Of a stretch of DNA of 64,000 nt, positions 5,601-63,672 are shown one piece after another. The stretch covers positions 1,618,880 through 1,682,879 of the forward strand of contig NZ_CP101655.1 in the NCBI RefSeq assembly GCF_028830055.1, given 5' to 3'. Origin of the DNA: Pseudomonas serboccidentalis. Its GTDB lineage: Bacteria > Pseudomonadota > Gammaproteobacteria > Pseudomonadales > Pseudomonadaceae. Every line of letters starts with the position of its first letter. Position 1 is the stretch's first letter. Below the pieces are notes generated by a model that ran no database searches, had not been told where the DNA came from, and worked only from the letters and a program-made list of their open reading frames with translations. A program made the position numbers and the translations under genes.

Positions 5601-5990
5601 ATAGAGTTTGCTTAAGCGTGGAAAAATCAGTGTGGCTTCGCCCACATTGCTTTCACGCTTGTTTGCGGTTATTTCGCCTTTTTCCCAGAGCAGTTGCGTC
5701 ACGATACCGTTTTGCACACGGTATTCATGAAGAACCGCTTCGGGCTTTTTTTCGGTGATAACGTAAAGCCATCCGTCGCGGATCAAACGAATACCCAGCG
5801 GGCGCGACTCCAATTTGTACGGCATAGCCAGCGCACTCGATGGATCTAGCCTTTCCACAATTCCGTAACGTAACGGAATGAGCTGGATCTTGGCTTTCAT
5901 CAGCGAACAGCCGCCCAAAGCGCATTTGCCATCGTCCCGGCTTTTTGCAGCGTTGTTCGGGTTTTTTGCTGCCGATGTTGGCGTTGTCAT
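2649..5990 (-). CDS. T6SS effector, VasX / BTH_I2691 family, putative pore-forming toxin
   Basis: A 1113-aa protein. The N-terminal portion (about 25-200) resembles the VasX N-terminal region: a cysteine pair CALGGC, then LIPLRYGIVERLD, a RPLGIRLIRDGWLYV stretch and EYRV, as in effectors that ride on VgrG through adaptor proteins. The middle is long and helical. Between roughly 700 and 930 there are several Gly/Ala-rich hydrophobic segments consistent with membrane insertion. No nuclease, lipase or peptidase motif is visible. Its ATG overlaps the TGA of the DUF4123 adaptor gene, and the DUF6708 gene follows after 4 nt. Known VasX-like proteins depolarise target membranes; that activity is inferred here. 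The gene has lower G+C than vgrG, which suggests modular acquisition. Confidence 0.85.
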   Translation of the reverse strand: MTTPTSAAKNPNNAAKSRDDGKCALGGCSLMKAKIQLIPLRYGIVERLDPSSALAMPYKLESRPLGIRLIRDGWLYVITEKKPEAVLHEYRVQNGIVTQLLWEKGEITANKRESNVGEATLIFPRLSKLYVNYSEVQWTAAKCAQVIKHRSEREYFMQKIDLTNADPEKGTTDLLTESQAKKWIAEVAEEPSKDPAIAGAKPEESKDYLWEQTACFKKTQLGLVKKQVKAEYERDHLYLIVQDDLGVLRDLAEHQDLVSGWLIDWSDAETNQKKYVFGSYIETLYTVTGDTLISAAQGDPRFSKLSDETSPEQRQSIVDYVNTKNQTQWSGAGSQRGAISASKMRMRTSLGLLYPKYEDLIETIEENADDALNGAKMGQEGINDLIDRPAMESFLKHQRAQLNRWNKRLDLITNDRIGLISEQRFHRAGWYFDPKFGIQLEASLATEYACIKDICRTEKSTEKLADLINKQPGFTVPTYFTLSLTDQKDLDAKIASAIKSVRDTKMAAKDYEGAQELSGKFGNLLTQHLAASMHLSENGITFDQMRNTAYEPAKQLRLADAMDESIKALRSGQPVDPAKLLRNIPNSAWVDVLRAFGKGGITLEFASASQIDTFKADMEKLTDLRRQMSALKNQIRQTLANERKGVTAKGTHKSLIERRKSLQQTVGPLETRVARAMSPVGEGPGKAAFKIKGLTNAQVLEFERMVDDYRLKKPLKGLSREVFKSAGGDLFASAAAVMQIISFVRVSSEYSLKKEADASDKLALFNSFFSMAGGTFAAVQGIAITSLSLAIENYSSAAGKIKLAARLGRITGALSPFAYVFSTIAAGTGIYGEKGSAARWTEALRSGDGAKLAGASMTLAGDSGQLIVNGWAFARSGKHLMDVVTTTNQARSLAWVTAGGRLLSVAARANLIGLVLTGLQLGGEWLYNRNNKSELDKWLQKGPWGKNNANRSMIEERLLLADISSAPQVALQQVNNKPMVILHFPGLTIRELDEVGLGLSAYWLTNHQRNDWEPWSEPMLYQLNLLSALDAPLKLGFEIFQNETNAQHGMGIALRYHPVAGEEIFREKRFESVTLNAQSGKPFSPVSVLRTRASDAPWLVINSEALSSPNLTG

Positions 5991-6886
5991 CCTTGGCTCC
6001 TGTTCAGGGTTGCAGCCCGTTCCTGGGCAATATCAGCGACCCTTTCGAGTCGTTGTGCAGGCGTTTGTTCCGACGGGGTTTTGAGTATGGCGTCGAGGTC
6101 TGGATGTTCTTCCAGTGCTCGCTCGCCAAGGAACCCGTGAATGTTGGCGTAGAGGGTGATATCGAGTTCGGTGTTGAAGCCGCGATCATAGGAGGTCGAC
6201 GCCAGCGCATGCAGGTGTTCCCAGCGTTGCCGTGGAGTCGACTGTGCCTGATAGCTTGGAAAATATTCTTGCATGTGTGCATCGAGACGCATCACAACAT
6301 TGCGAAAGTTCACCTCGTCCAGTTGACTGAGTTGTGCGTCGCTCAATCGATAGCGTTTGCTGTGGTCGGGGTTAGGAGCGTTGCCCGGCCTATTGTTGAT
6401 GTACCAGCAATCCAGTGCTGCATCGGCAGTAACGATTTGTTTGCAGGGGCCGAATAGGGTCGAATCCTTGATGGTTTCTGCGTGAGCGAGCAGTGCGTGG
6501 GTTACGGCCGGGTCTGCGATGCGCAACAGCACTTCCTCGCCCAGTGGGTGCATGACGCTGGTGAGCCAGCGAAAGTGTGCGACCAGTTGATCCCATGATT
6601 GATCGCTAAACACCAAGTGCCCCCATTCCTGACGCGATGCGTTCAGGAACCGGGTCAGGATCGGGTTGTTCTGTGCTTTTATTTGCACGAGGCATGGGGA
6701 GATATCGCCCAGTCCTGCCCAACGAGTCCCAAGATAAAGCGGCTCGAACTCAGGGTTTTCCGTCCACTGATACAGGTGCTGCGGAAGCTTCTCAACGCTG
6801 ACACCATCAAGCAGTAGACCTACCGTGCCATTCCATGGAAAGCCTTGGGGGAGGCCGTTTTCCAATGGAAATTCCGACTTAAGCAT
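5987..6886 (-). CDS. DUF4123 domain T6SS effector adaptor (Tap/TEC type)
   Basis: A 299-aa protein with the DUF4123 layout: an N-terminal region LLLDGVSVEKLPQHLY, then FEPLYLGTRW, PCLVQI, a WGHLVFSDQSWDQLVAHFRWL segment split by family-typical tryptophans, and HPLGEEVLLRIADP. Family members act as chaperones that load a cognate effector onto the VgrG tip. The ATG at 6886 has a strong GGAGG seven bases upstream. The gene overlaps the vgrG end by 8 nt and its own TGA overlaps the effector ATG, the expected vgrG-adaptor-effector order. An upstream in-frame start exists inside vgrG but lacks a ribosome site. Confidence 0.88.
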   Translation of the reverse strand: MLKSEFPLENGLPQGFPWNGTVGLLLDGVSVEKLPQHLYQWTENPEFEPLYLGTRWAGLGDISPCLVQIKAQNNPILTRFLNASRQEWGHLVFSDQSWDQLVAHFRWLTSVMHPLGEEVLLRIADPAVTHALLAHAETIKDSTLFGPCKQIVTADAALDCWYINNRPGNAPNPDHSKRYRLSDAQLSQLDEVNFRNVVMRLDAHMQEYFPSYQAQSTPRQRWEHLHALASTSYDRGFNTELDITLYANIHGFLGERALEEHPDLDAILKTPSEQTPAQRLERVADIAQERAATLNRSQG

Positions 6887-8921
6887 TCTGTGCCTCCAAT
6901 TTGGCTTTCTCGCACACCGCACAAATCGGCTTCTTCTGCATCAACGCTTGCCGCTGCGCCGGCACCAGCAACTGCCCAGCCTTATCGGTATCCGCCTGCT
7001 TCAACGGCCCCGGCAATAACGGCGCCGCCCCCGTGCCACTGCCCGGACTACCCCCGGAGTTCATATTGATCACCGGCCCACTCATGGTCACGCCGCCAGC
7101 GTCGATCTTGATGAAGCTGCCGCCGCCGATCAGGGTCAACTCGGCGCCGGCTTCTAGCACGACTTTCATGCCGCTGCTCAGGTGGATTTCCTGGCCGGCG
7201 TCGATGAATTGGCCGGTGCCGATCTTGATGTGTTGGTTGACGCCCACGGTCAGGTGGTCGTTGGCGCGGGCTTCGACTTTGCGGTCGGCGTAGACGGTGT
7301 GGTGTTCTTCGGCCTTGAACTCGCTGTAGCTGTTCTGCTCGACGGTGTCGTGGCGTTCGTTGCCGACACGGATTTTCTGGTCGTGCTCGATGTTCTCGTC
7401 CCAGTCGCGCTGGGCGTGGAGGTAGATCTGCTCCTGACCTTTCTTGTCTTCGATGCGCAGTTCGTTGTAACCGCCACCGCCCATCGAGCTCAGGGTCTTG
7501 AAGGTGCTGCGGGTCTTGTTCGCCGGCAGCGCGTAGGGGACGGTGTTTTCCTTGTGGTACAGGCAGCCGCTGATCAGCGGTTGATCGGGGTCGCCTTCAA
7601 GGAAGGTGACCAGCACTTCCATGCCGATGCGCGGGATGGCGATGCCGCCGTACTGGGCGCCGGCCCAGGCGGATGAGACGCGCAGCCAGCAACTGGTCTT
7701 GTCGTCGGCCTGGCCTTCGCGGTCCCAGTGGAATTGCACTTTGACGCGGCCGTACTGGTCGCAGTGGATTTCTTCGCCTTTGGGGCCGGTGACCACGGCG
7801 CTCTGGCTGCCGAGGATGCGCGGTTTCGGGTGGCGCAGCGGTGGGCGGTTCGGTACGTCCCATGGGGTCGCCTGAAAGCGGTTGCGATAGCCTTGATGGA
7901 AGTCGTCTTTGAGTGCGGTGGTGTCACTGGTCACCGATTCTTCCAGCACTTGCGGCTGTTTGCCTTCGTGCAGGACTTCGGTGAGCAGCCACAGGTCGTT
8001 CCATTTGGCCTTCGGGTGCTCGGTCAGGGCGAGGAAATGGCCGCTGACCAGCAACGGCTGATCGCTTTTGCCTTCGGCGAGCTGGAAGTCGCTGCGGTGG
8101 CGTTCGAGGGCGCGTTTGGCCAGGTGCTTGCCGCGCTCGCGGTCGATGAAGCGGCCCGGGTAGTCGTAGTCTTCGAGGTCGGGCAGGGCGTCGCCACGGT
8201 TTTCGCTTTCCAGCGTCAGGCGCGGTTTTTCGAAGTCGTAATCGCGGCGCGTGGTACGACTGGTGCGGGTTTCCAGGCGCAGGTCGAAACGCTTGATCAC
8301 CGGGTTGCTGGCGACCATGCCGGAGTCTTGCTGGTAGGCCACAGGCTTGAGTTTCGGGAACACCGTCTGGTCATCGCCGAACACCAGCTTGTGCGCCGTG
8401 GCGCTGTGCTGGAAGTGGTAATGGATACCTTCTTCCTCGCACAGGCGCTGAATGAAATGCAGGTCCGATTCATCGTATTGCACGCAGTAGATGCGCTCGG
8501 GATAGATGGAACCGGTCTTGAATTCGTAGGCGTTGCTCTGGATGCCGTGCTCTTCGAGAACCATGCCGATGATTTTCGGCACCGTGAGGTTCTGGAAGAT
8601 GCGTTGATTGACGCGATGCGCCAGGTACGACAATTGCGGGCGCAGGGTCACCGAATAGCGCGTCAGGCGCTTGCCGGAATCGCCCTGGGCGGCGCGGTAG
8701 ATCTGACCGTGAATGCCGCTGCCATCGGGCGACAGTTGCAGGAAGGCCGGTTTGTGCAGCAGGGTTTCGAGGTCCAGCGACGGCTGCTCACTGACCAGCT
8801 CCACCTCGAACACAAAAGGCTGGCTGATGGCTTCCCGGCCGGTGAGGGTAAACACCTGAAAGTCGGCGGAAAGCCCTTCGATGGTCAGGGCAAAGTGAGT
8901 TTCATTGGCCGGCGCGAACAT
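6879..8921 (-). CDS. vgrG: T6SS spike protein VgrG
   Basis: A 680-aa VgrG/TssI. The N-terminal gp27-like part includes REAISQPFVFEVELVSE and the conserved ESDLHFIQRLCEEEGIHYHF. The central gp5/OB segment carries EIHCDQYGRVKVQFHWDREG, WLRVSSAWAG and GMEVLVTFLEGDPDQP. The C-terminal part is a DUF2345-like beta-helix (KVVLEAGAELTLIGGGSFIKI). A Gly/Pro-rich linker then leads to a short tail with a C-x2-C pair (ICAVCEK) and charged residues, perhaps the docking site for the adaptor and effector. I placed the start at ATG 8921, after AGG motifs; a start further upstream would add about 15 unlikely residues. It is separated from hcp by 130 bp. Confidence 0.95.
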   Translation of the reverse strand: MFAPANETHFALTIEGLSADFQVFTLTGREAISQPFVFEVELVSEQPSLDLETLLHKPAFLQLSPDGSGIHGQIYRAAQGDSGKRLTRYSVTLRPQLSYLAHRVNQRIFQNLTVPKIIGMVLEEHGIQSNAYEFKTGSIYPERIYCVQYDESDLHFIQRLCEEEGIHYHFQHSATAHKLVFGDDQTVFPKLKPVAYQQDSGMVASNPVIKRFDLRLETRTSRTTRRDYDFEKPRLTLESENRGDALPDLEDYDYPGRFIDRERGKHLAKRALERHRSDFQLAEGKSDQPLLVSGHFLALTEHPKAKWNDLWLLTEVLHEGKQPQVLEESVTSDTTALKDDFHQGYRNRFQATPWDVPNRPPLRHPKPRILGSQSAVVTGPKGEEIHCDQYGRVKVQFHWDREGQADDKTSCWLRVSSAWAGAQYGGIAIPRIGMEVLVTFLEGDPDQPLISGCLYHKENTVPYALPANKTRSTFKTLSSMGGGGYNELRIEDKKGQEQIYLHAQRDWDENIEHDQKIRVGNERHDTVEQNSYSEFKAEEHHTVYADRKVEARANDHLTVGVNQHIKIGTGQFIDAGQEIHLSSGMKVVLEAGAELTLIGGGSFIKIDAGGVTMSGPVINMNSGGSPGSGTGAAPLLPGPLKQADTDKAGQLLVPAQRQALMQKKPICAVCEKAKLEAQNA

Positions 8922-61782: not shown

Positions 61783-62289
61783 TCACTGATCCGCCTTTCG
61801 CCGGACCTTTATGGCGGCCTCAATCTTCAGCCTGAAATTGTATTTCGAGAAAAGATTCTTCGCGTTGAATTCTGGTTTAACGAAGGGGGCTTTTTTGTTG
61901 CAGACGTACGCTATTTTGGGATGGTAGCTAGCCAAGAATTGCTCGCCGTGTGCTGCAATCAAAAATTTAATAGTCGACTCTAATTGTTTTATTCCTTGGC
62001 TTTGCCAGCCACTTCCAGCTCGATCCTTGAGCTCCACCAAGTACAAGGCGTCTTCGGTATTCAGCATGCAGTCACAGCGCTCCCGGCCTTTTTCCTCTCC
62101 GTCTTTGATCACGCATTTGTCAATCGCGGTAAATACAACCGATCTTTGGAGGGGATTTACTACGGACGCTACCCATGTTGCCCGGTTTCCGGCGTCAACA
62201 TAGGCTACGGGAAACTCTTGATCGTCACGTATTCCAAATTCGGCATCAGTAAACGGGCCTGTCTGGCAGCGAGTATCAAGAAAATTCAC
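61783..62289 (-). CDS. Small PD-(D/E)xK nuclease-like protein of a two-gene ATPase cassette
   Basis: A 168-aa protein. RCDCMLNTEDALYLVELKDR contains an acidic residue (D73), a 13-residue spacing and ELK (E86, K88): the core of PD-(D/E)xK nucleases such as restriction enzymes and Holliday resolvases. The following GWQSQGIKQLESTIKFLI fits the conserved helix with glutamines. Cysteines C72 and C74 are nearby. It starts at GTG 62289, overlapping the ATPase TGA, with a very strong GAGGAGGAG upstream, so the two are made together. Nuclease activity is inferred. G+C is visibly lower than in flanking genes. No T-run terminator is clear after the stop. Confidence 0.7.
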   Translation of the reverse strand: MNFLDTRCQTGPFTDAEFGIRDDQEFPVAYVDAGNRATWVASVVNPLQRSVVFTAIDKCVIKDGEEKGRERCDCMLNTEDALYLVELKDRAGSGWQSQGIKQLESTIKFLIAAHGEQFLASYHPKIAYVCNKKAPFVKPEFNAKNLFSKYNFRLKIEAAIKVRRKADQ

Positions 62290-63524
62290 CCTTTCAGCTC
62301 CTCCTCAATATCGAGGAGTGCGTCAAATAGATCATTGCCTTCTTGCAAGGATCTGTTCAGAAAGTTGTCATCGGAAGGGATGCCATCAACTATCGGCAGC
62401 GTCTTGATTGATCCGTTTTTTTCATCTGCTTGGTAAATTGCCAACTCATTGATGTCCACCAAAGCGTGTAAAGGGATAACCGTGGCAAGTTTAGGGAGGA
62501 GGTCCTTATCGCGTTTTTTCTTGTGAATGCTGTCCTGCAGATGTTTGCCTTGTACGGCAATCGTCAAGTAATTAACCACATAGGGGCTATGGGTTGTCAT
62601 CACTAGACGGTTGTTCTCTCCCTGATTATTGAACTGCAGAAGACTCTGCAAAACGCTCCATTGCGACTGCGGATAAAGATTTTGTTCCGGCTCTTCCACT
62701 ATATTGATAAACGCTGACTTGTTGAATCTGGACGAGAGGGCGGAGAGAGCGATACGCCGCTGTTCCTCCGTCAGAGAATCGATAGAAAATATTTGTACGA
62801 CCTCCTTTCTGAAGCGATCCAGTTCTTCGGCGCTCATGTTCTCCTGTCGCTCTTCACTGTGTACTTGAACAGCATTGGCCAGGTAATGGCTTACTAAATG
62901 CAATGGCACAGCAGATTGAAATCCACTGGAGGCGTCGGCCAATCTGAGCTTGTAATCGGAGTCACGAATATTGAGGAGGTCGTTCAGTTTGTCGTATTCG
63001 AGTTCTGCCTGGTTGATAGGCAATAACAGAGTGCCCTTCATATTGGCTTTGGCTGCATCGAACTCAGTCAGAAATTCCTTAAGCGAGTCAGAGGATAATT
63101 TCAGCTCGCGAGGGTGTCTGACGTACGAGATGAAGTTGCGCTCAGCAGGCACATACATAATCTGAGGCAGATGGTAATTTCCGCCCTTCGAAGCAGTGAT
63201 ATGTAGCTGGCCCCGCAGGTAGCGAATGGAAAAGGCCTCACCTTCGTATTCGATCTCTGAGGAGTCAGAGATGTAGTGTTCTAGCCTGTGATAAGTCAAA
63301 AAGGGTTTGATGAATTTATTCTTTCGTTCAAACCATTTTTGTTCGTAATCCCCGCGCACCAAAGCCTTTTCTATCCACGAAAAGGTTGAGTACAGCTTGG
63401 CCAGCGTGCTTTTCCCGGAGCCCTGATTGCCCACGAATACGGTCACGCGTTTGAACTCTATCCAACCGTCATTCTCAACTCCATCGCGGATAGGGCCAAA
63501 ATGCTTGACGCGTAGTCGGGTCAT
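62286..63524 (-). CDS. ABC/SMC-type AAA ATPase (AAA_15/AAA_21-like), putative defence component
   Basis: A 412-aa ATPase of the OLD/RecF-like class without a TOPRIM or other fused nuclease domain. It starts MTRLRVKHFGPIRDG, with Walker A GNQGSGKST (residues 32-40), a signature-like ASSGFQSAVPLH, Walker B INIVEEPEQ (about 273-281) and the switch histidine MTTHSPYVVN (about 312). ATPases of this type partner with small effectors in retron, Septu, PARIS and similar anti-phage systems. Here the partner is a PD-(D/E)xK-like protein whose start overlaps the stop. GGAG precedes ATG 63524. The cassette is AT-richer than its surroundings, consistent with horizontal transfer. Confidence 0.85.
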   Translation of the reverse strand: MTRLRVKHFGPIRDGVENDGWIEFKRVTVFVGNQGSGKSTLAKLYSTFSWIEKALVRGDYEQKWFERKNKFIKPFLTYHRLEHYISDSSEIEYEGEAFSIRYLRGQLHITASKGGNYHLPQIMYVPAERNFISYVRHPRELKLSSDSLKEFLTEFDAAKANMKGTLLLPINQAELEYDKLNDLLNIRDSDYKLRLADASSGFQSAVPLHLVSHYLANAVQVHSEERQENMSAEELDRFRKEVVQIFSIDSLTEEQRRIALSALSSRFNKSAFINIVEEPEQNLYPQSQWSVLQSLLQFNNQGENNRLVMTTHSPYVVNYLTIAVQGKHLQDSIHKKKRDKDLLPKLATVIPLHALVDINELAIYQADEKNGSIKTLPIVDGIPSDDNFLNRSLQEGNDLFDALLDIEEELKG

Positions 63525-63648
63525 TGAACACTCCATGAGAAATAGCTTGGCAGGTACAGCTGTGCAGCATATCAGGGCGTTAAGCAAACGGGAGGGGCAA
63601 ATGCGTGAAGCTTGCCGGCGGAACGTGCTTTTCTCCTAAGAATAAAAG

Positions 63649-63672
63649 CTCCGCCAATTCAAATCGGCGGAG
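63649..63672 (-). terminator. Rho-independent terminator of the NTF2-like gene
   Basis: CTCCGCC (63649-63655) pairs with GGCGGAG (63666-63672). On the minus strand the stem is followed by CTTTTATTCTT. It lies 14 bp beyond the gene's stop codon. Confidence 0.82.

Follow-up and report, generated by a model that had tools for sequence, protein, structure and literature searches.

The ATPase and its small partner

Two overlapping genes, here called A and B, lie on the reverse strand of a 64,000-nucleotide stretch of Pseudomonas serboccidentalis DNA (contig NZ_CP101655.1, positions 1,618,880 to 1,682,879; hereafter the window). They encode an ATPase of the OLD/PtuA type and a small PD-(D/E)xK-like protein, and an earlier sequence-only reading had proposed them as a candidate undescribed anti-phage system. 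Both reading frames and their stop/start overlap are real and placed as that reading had them. Their features, in positions of the window, are the following.

62286..63524, reverse strand: gene A, OLD/PtuA-type ABC ATPase, 412 amino acids (PDC-M29A); ATG at 63524, stop at 62286
63408..63431, reverse strand: Walker A, GNQGSGKS, A residues 32-39 (protein alignment)
62685..62705, reverse strand: Walker B, NIVEEPE, A residues 274-280 (protein alignment)
62580..62597, reverse strand: H-switch, TTHSPY, A residues 310-315 (protein alignment)
62286..62289, reverse strand: GTGA, 4-base overlap of the A stop (TGA) and the B start (GTG)
61783..62289, reverse strand: gene B, small PD-(D/E)xK-like protein, 168 amino acids (PDC-M29B); GTG at 62289, stop at 61783
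62119..62121, reverse strand: D57 of B, invariant in 65 aligned rows
62071..62073, reverse strand: D73 of B, present in at least 90% of the 65 rows
62026..62034, reverse strand: E86-L87-K88 of B, invariant in the 65 rows

Pfam finds AAA_15, AAA_21 and further NTPase families in A and nothing else, in agreement with the proposed ATPase without a fused nuclease. The closest solved folds are those of PtuA and Rad50 (the Rad50/SMC head), and the OLD/RecF-like assignment is borne out in that A is OLD/PtuA-like by both Pfam and fold comparison. Across 46 aligned A proteins (the window copy, 35 further loci and 10 of 120 listed proteins) residues G32, Q34, G35, G37, K38, S39, E277-E278 and H312 are invariant, so that Walker A, Walker B and the H-switch are intact as described. 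For B, 65 rows were aligned (40 from fetched loci and the window, plus 25 of 29 listed proteins), with near-duplicates, L047 (a stop inside the B frame), L049 (cut) and L050 (no start) set aside. Here D57, E86, L87, K88 and Q102 show no variation, and the level for D73 is the one given above; the conservation of D73, E86 and K88, suggested earlier as a check, is thus present, and the partner stands as a small protein with an invariant ELK core. B matches no Pfam family at E-values up to 1, and hence no DNA-binding family, and its weak matches are mostly DNases, judged by title or general knowledge. A PD-(D/E)xK fold for B is weakly supported.

Membership in a catalogued candidate defence family

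The two genes form a tight operon, and their association is strict. In all 43 B loci found elsewhere A lies immediately 5' of B, which places the pairing beyond chance; among the spacings measured, those of L016, L025 and probably L029 are distorted by an alignment that continued through the stop of A. Both proteins match PDC-M29, a candidate of PADLOC-DB 2.0.0, along nearly their entire length: A matches PDC-M29A at an E-value of 2.7e-192 (residues 1-409 of 412) and B matches PDC-M29B at 3.4e-54 (residues 1-162 of 168), two PDC-M29B models being the only PADLOC matches of B at E-values up to 1. PDC-M29 has the same two genes, adjacent and both full-length, and no trait was found that sets the present copy apart; by these profile matches the pair belongs to PDC-M29, a catalogued defence candidate.

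The description of the system as undescribed does not hold, as PDC-M29 covers both proteins and two-gene systems of an OLD-ABC ATPase and a PD-(D/E)xK protein are reported in two publications (PMC12137116, PMC12839542). The sequence-only reading had itself named identity with a system already known as evidence against its proposal; such a match was found in a weak form, to a catalogued candidate. A search of 5.39 million papers, which left most subscription papers and every preprint outside its reach, returned no paper naming PDC-M29 and no reported test of it.

Distribution and chromosomal site

The pair is accessory, as had been supposed. With the genome of the window included in each count, A was found in 3 of 144 relatives (limit 1e-40), 6 of 398 genomes of the genus (limit 1e-60) and 1 of 274 genomes of the class (limit 1e-40), which rules out a universal core gene, and all six copies in the genus have B adjoining. 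A DNA-level search of 5,426 E. coli genomes found no copy. Scanning species genomes with the B alignment yielded 43 loci in Pseudomonadota, Bacteroidota, Thermodesulfobacteriota and one spirochaete, and in a quick tree of A the phyla are intermixed, with a Parabeggiatoa copy, for example, amid sulfate reducers. Plasmid records hold A three times and B once, the latter in a Persicobacter plasmid with a PDC-M29 A+B pair (L099, around 6001-7750). No match to B was found in phage records at 1e-5. Viral contigs gave three distant loci for A (best 27% identical) and none for B, and a Foldseek comparison with viral models gave no match at an E-value of 0.001.

The G+C content is 47.5% in A and 48.1% in B, as against 63.4% in the chemoreceptor gene on one side, 53.3% in part of the NTF2-like gene on the other and 60.0% in the window, so the pair is AT-richer than its neighbours, as had been noted; both flanking names are labels from the sequence-only reading. 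Nine of 10 distinct Pseudomonas loci (the window, G029, G084 and L008-L013) have the pair in this same interval, and the tenth, P. typographi (L014 = L007 = L054), has it at another place. Of 51 other genomes with the NTF2-like gene, among 119 searched, 40 were fetched. The two flanking genes are adjacent in 14 of the 40, and 26 lack the chemoreceptor beside the NTF2-like gene. The flanking genes stand 40-178 bp apart, with frames judged by eye, in 10 of the 14, and eight of these 10 short stretches (L056-L060, L062, L069, L073) contain inverted repeats, which we take to resemble repetitive extragenic palindromic (REP) elements. Of the other four, two (L055, L071) have an apparently broken chemoreceptor frame, its C-terminal part forming a separate frame inside the gap, and two (L076, L077) have an unrelated 240-amino-acid frame, presumably a polysaccharide lyase, between the flanking genes. 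The NTF2-like match of L008 (8181-8602) falls in two frames, a sign that this strain may carry a frameshift. No replacement of the pair by another defence cassette was observed among the 40 fetched relatives, which gave no indication of a hotspot for defence systems of other kinds at the site.

Mosaic alleles

Strain B20 and P. parakoreensis differ little in A (95% identical) and widely in B (59%). Synonymous difference between them is 0.23, 0.19 and 0.09 in A columns 1-120, 121-240 and 241-320, then 0.43 (321-370) and 0.40 (371-416), and 0.74 in B, with the flanking genes at 0.44 and 0.61 (for the chemoreceptor, its first 150 codons). Rapid protein change would not by itself produce such a split at synonymous sites; the natural reading is therefore an exchange of alleles between strains, broken at about codon 320 of A. 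Relative to the flanks A 1-320 is closer and B farther, and either side could have moved. The clear split comes from this one strain pair; B20 and RIT288 form another mosaic, with synonymous difference of 0.52-0.88, then 0.28-0.32, then 0.86 in B. A comparison of the window with AKS31 was set aside as proof of exchange, since in A too the synonymous difference (0.58-0.89) approaches saturation. The two halves of the pair thus look as if strains had recombined them at a single chromosomal site.

Whether B follows a particular part of A was examined by comparing distances, with duplicate or cut loci omitted (L001, L013, L014, L022, L024, L033, L047, L049, L050), as were L005 and L006, treated as copies of L012 and L013 for their equal identities. 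Over 39 loci, distances in B are tracked by A 321-412 (0.48) more closely than by A 1-320 (0.31), with partial correlations of 0.39 and 0.09, and in the 30 loci outside Pseudomonas the tracking by the C-terminal part is stronger (0.62 versus 0.14). That B docks on the C-terminus of A is suggested rather than shown by these values, because closeness on the DNA could produce the same correlation. In the nine Pseudomonas loci the C-terminal part tracks B no better than the rest (partial 0.17 versus 0.30), and over the whole set of 39 residues 1-60 of A track B equally well (0.48).

Neighbouring genes

Genes around the pair were scanned as 147 of 168 called frames at 33 of 37 loci, frames above 900 amino acids being skipped. 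The 147 proteins matched 293 PADLOC families at 1e-10, each family by at most six proteins, as compared with two families for 52 control proteins around the window copy, made up of 49 of the 54 window frames plus three beyond. Single loci weigh more than the family count, because overlapping type I models inflate it and the control is one genome. A type I hsdR gene directly follows B in L015, L016, L017, L018 and L022, hsdS directly precedes A in L015, L017 and L018, and HsdS is encoded nearby in L032. Among 20 neighbour proteins chosen by size and place and examined singly, six were without any match and two more had partial or weak matches only. In L020 (3770-6823) the candidate pair PDC-M07AB stands directly before A, giving two ATPase-led candidate pairs in tandem. 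A neighbour in L034 matching RTasRmuC may be an ordinary RmuC and was left out of the defence count. OLD-ABC modules, some with PD-(D/E)xK partners, are proposed in one report to serve as a back-up of BREX against phage counter-defence (PMC12839542), and the type I loci beside the pair would fit, by analogy, a back-up to restriction.

Putative expression signals

Four further features, all on the reverse strand, may bear on expression of the pair.

62296..62305, reverse strand: AGGAGGAGCT, ribosome-site-like, ahead of B and within the EEEL codons of A
63531..63534, reverse strand: GGAG, ribosome-site-like stretch of A (Pseudomonas locus alignment)
63566..63577, reverse strand: CCCTGATATGCT, extended -10-like element ahead of A, conserved in 9 of 9 Pseudomonas loci
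63649..63672, reverse strand: terminator-like hairpin 3' of the NTF2-like gene, parting that gene from the pair

The stretch AGGAGGAGCT, read earlier as a very strong internal ribosome site, is present, with one copy in the window versus 0.10 expected and an occurrence in 10 of 100 shuffles, an excess not strongly beyond chance, and it doubles as coding sequence for the conserved EEEL terminus of A. The element CCCTGATATGCT is identical in every letter in all nine aligned Pseudomonas loci despite the wide divergence of the genes and is a putative promoter of A; it is absent from the hits of a consensus promoter scan. The hairpin occurs once in the region versus 2.4 times expected in shuffles. 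No Rfam families or tRNA genes were found close to the pair.

Distant relatives

In Microcystis phage Mic1 a full-length A is encoded (L098, 5001-6239; 42% identical; PDC-M29A at 1.8e-187). Its gene adjoins one annotated as RNA ligase, and its position in the quick tree joins long branches. The B profile found nothing convincing in the 92.6 kb of Mic1 (best E-value 0.4), and Mic1's A found no match in viral contigs. The lone ATPase may be a decoy or serve a function of the phage itself. A distant A followed by an overlapping ELK protein was observed in a viral contig (L095, 45.6 kb, 5950-7690; 159 amino acids) and, among glycosyltransferase genes, in a Bacteroides finegoldii plasmid (L100, 4139-5702; 166 amino acids). 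These two small proteins share a CD..VELK..Q core with B, and their profile matches B at an E-value of 0.0003 with a probability of just 40%; that of L095, searched in viral contigs, found itself alone. At L096 (1860-3744) a distant A precedes a 200-amino-acid protein with a very weak match to the ELK core (E-value 0.023, probability 2%).

Proposed function

The two genes probably constitute an accessory defence module belonging to the PDC-M29 family and resembling WonAB, with A as sensor and B as nuclease, and the defence role first proposed for the pair is likely. The two genes, their motifs, their pairing, the accessory spread and the defence neighbours in part of the family are seen directly. 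In the proposed mechanism A would dimerise as other OLD/PtuA/Rad50-type ATPases do and would sense some sign of infection, presumably by phage. B, a putative PD-(D/E)xK nuclease, would be held by A, probably at its C-terminal part, until ATP turnover by A releases or activates it; B would then cut nucleic acid, and the infected cell would cease phage production. If WonB is a guide, B more probably cuts tRNA or rRNA and so arrests translation than restricts DNA entering the cell.

Direct restriction is nevertheless the first alternative to be weighed. A would recognise foreign DNA by its ends, modification or topology and B would cut it, in a Septu- or Rad50-like manner and without death of the cell, perhaps acting on plasmids too. 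The resemblance of A to PtuA and Rad50, the DNases among the weak matches of B and the five loci with adjoining hsdR speak for such a role, which is made unlikely by the want of a Pfam DNA-binding family in B and by the behaviour of WonAB, of the same layout, which stops translation and leaves genomic DNA intact according to its report (PMC12137116). A selfish addiction module, in which A restrains a toxin B and the pair is kept for its own sake, would account for the overlapping operon and the rare, scattered occurrence, and is improbable given the defence neighbours and a 412-amino-acid ATPase as first gene, which is atypical of toxin-antitoxin pairs; for WonAB, simple sequestration was excluded, as the same source states (PMC12137116). 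Housekeeping repair of the RecF/Rad50 kind with a nuclease subunit, to which the Rad50/SMC head fold of A might point, is scarcely credible for a pair of low G+C with defence neighbours and present in 6 of 398 genus genomes.

Within the favoured reading of a defence module, a more speculative and rather doubtful extension is a sensor with an exchangeable weapon. Pseudomonas strains would recombine, at one site, the ATPase core against the nuclease and the C-terminal docking part, re-pairing sensor and effector and perhaps changing the target; elsewhere the pair would be a back-up in type I operons, firing when restriction is blocked, and the Mic1 ATPase might act as a decoy, poisoning the sensor, with the ligase repairing cut RNA.

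As a discovery the pair is of ordinary value, the family being catalogued and its kind known. No test was found of PDC-M29, a catalogued candidate of wide occurrence, and the pair is a useful case because its mosaic alleles, restriction-adjoining copies and lone phage ATPase offer direct tests of mechanism. Natural chimeras in Pseudomonas, with the same ATPase core and a different nuclease, could allow sensing and killing to be assigned to one part or the other, a question that also concerns OLD-ABC ATPase systems such as WonAB, PARIS and Septu, and the copies adjoining hsdR make the back-up idea directly testable.

Comparison with known systems

In Septu (PtuAB) and in retrons with PtuA, going for the latter by entry titles, the partner of the ATPase is an HNH nuclease; B differs in having an ExK core and matches neither Pfam nor PtuB at E-values up to 1. 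Gabija and OLD differ in that a TOPRIM domain is fused to their ATPase, A being 412 amino acids long with NTPase families alone. PARIS (AriAB) likewise has separate ATPase and nuclease genes, and A matches an AriA model at 4.5e-16; its AriB, a TOPRIM nuclease, acts by cutting tRNA (PMC12839542), whereas B has no TOPRIM or AriB match in Pfam or PADLOC at E-values up to 1. PD-T4-4 is also an operon of ATPase and nuclease, and A matches PD-T4-4_A weakly (2e-6), but B matches no PD-T4-4 model at E-values up to 1. A search for PD-T4-4_A in 149 genus genomes was uninformative, as control genomes gave no match either. Operons of this type carry other inserts, C-terminal extensions and sometimes another nuclease, according to one report (PMC12137116).

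The closest parallel in layout is WonAB of the V. cholerae WASA-1 prophage. Its report describes an OLD-type ABC ATPase without a fused nuclease (WonA, AWB73975.1) and, after it, a small PD-(D/E)xK protein (WonB, AWB73976.1), a system that depends on both genes and on their catalytic residues, aborts infection and arrests translation, with WonB predicted to bind C-terminal extensions of WonA, and with the system assigned to a larger family of ABC-ATPase sensors and nuclease effectors (PMC12137116). A is likewise an OLD-type ABC ATPase without a fused nuclease and B carries a PD-(D/E)xK motif; unlike WonAB with its prophage setting, the pair sits at a chromosomal intergenic site. By analogy of layout, and not of sequence, the pair may work like WonAB.
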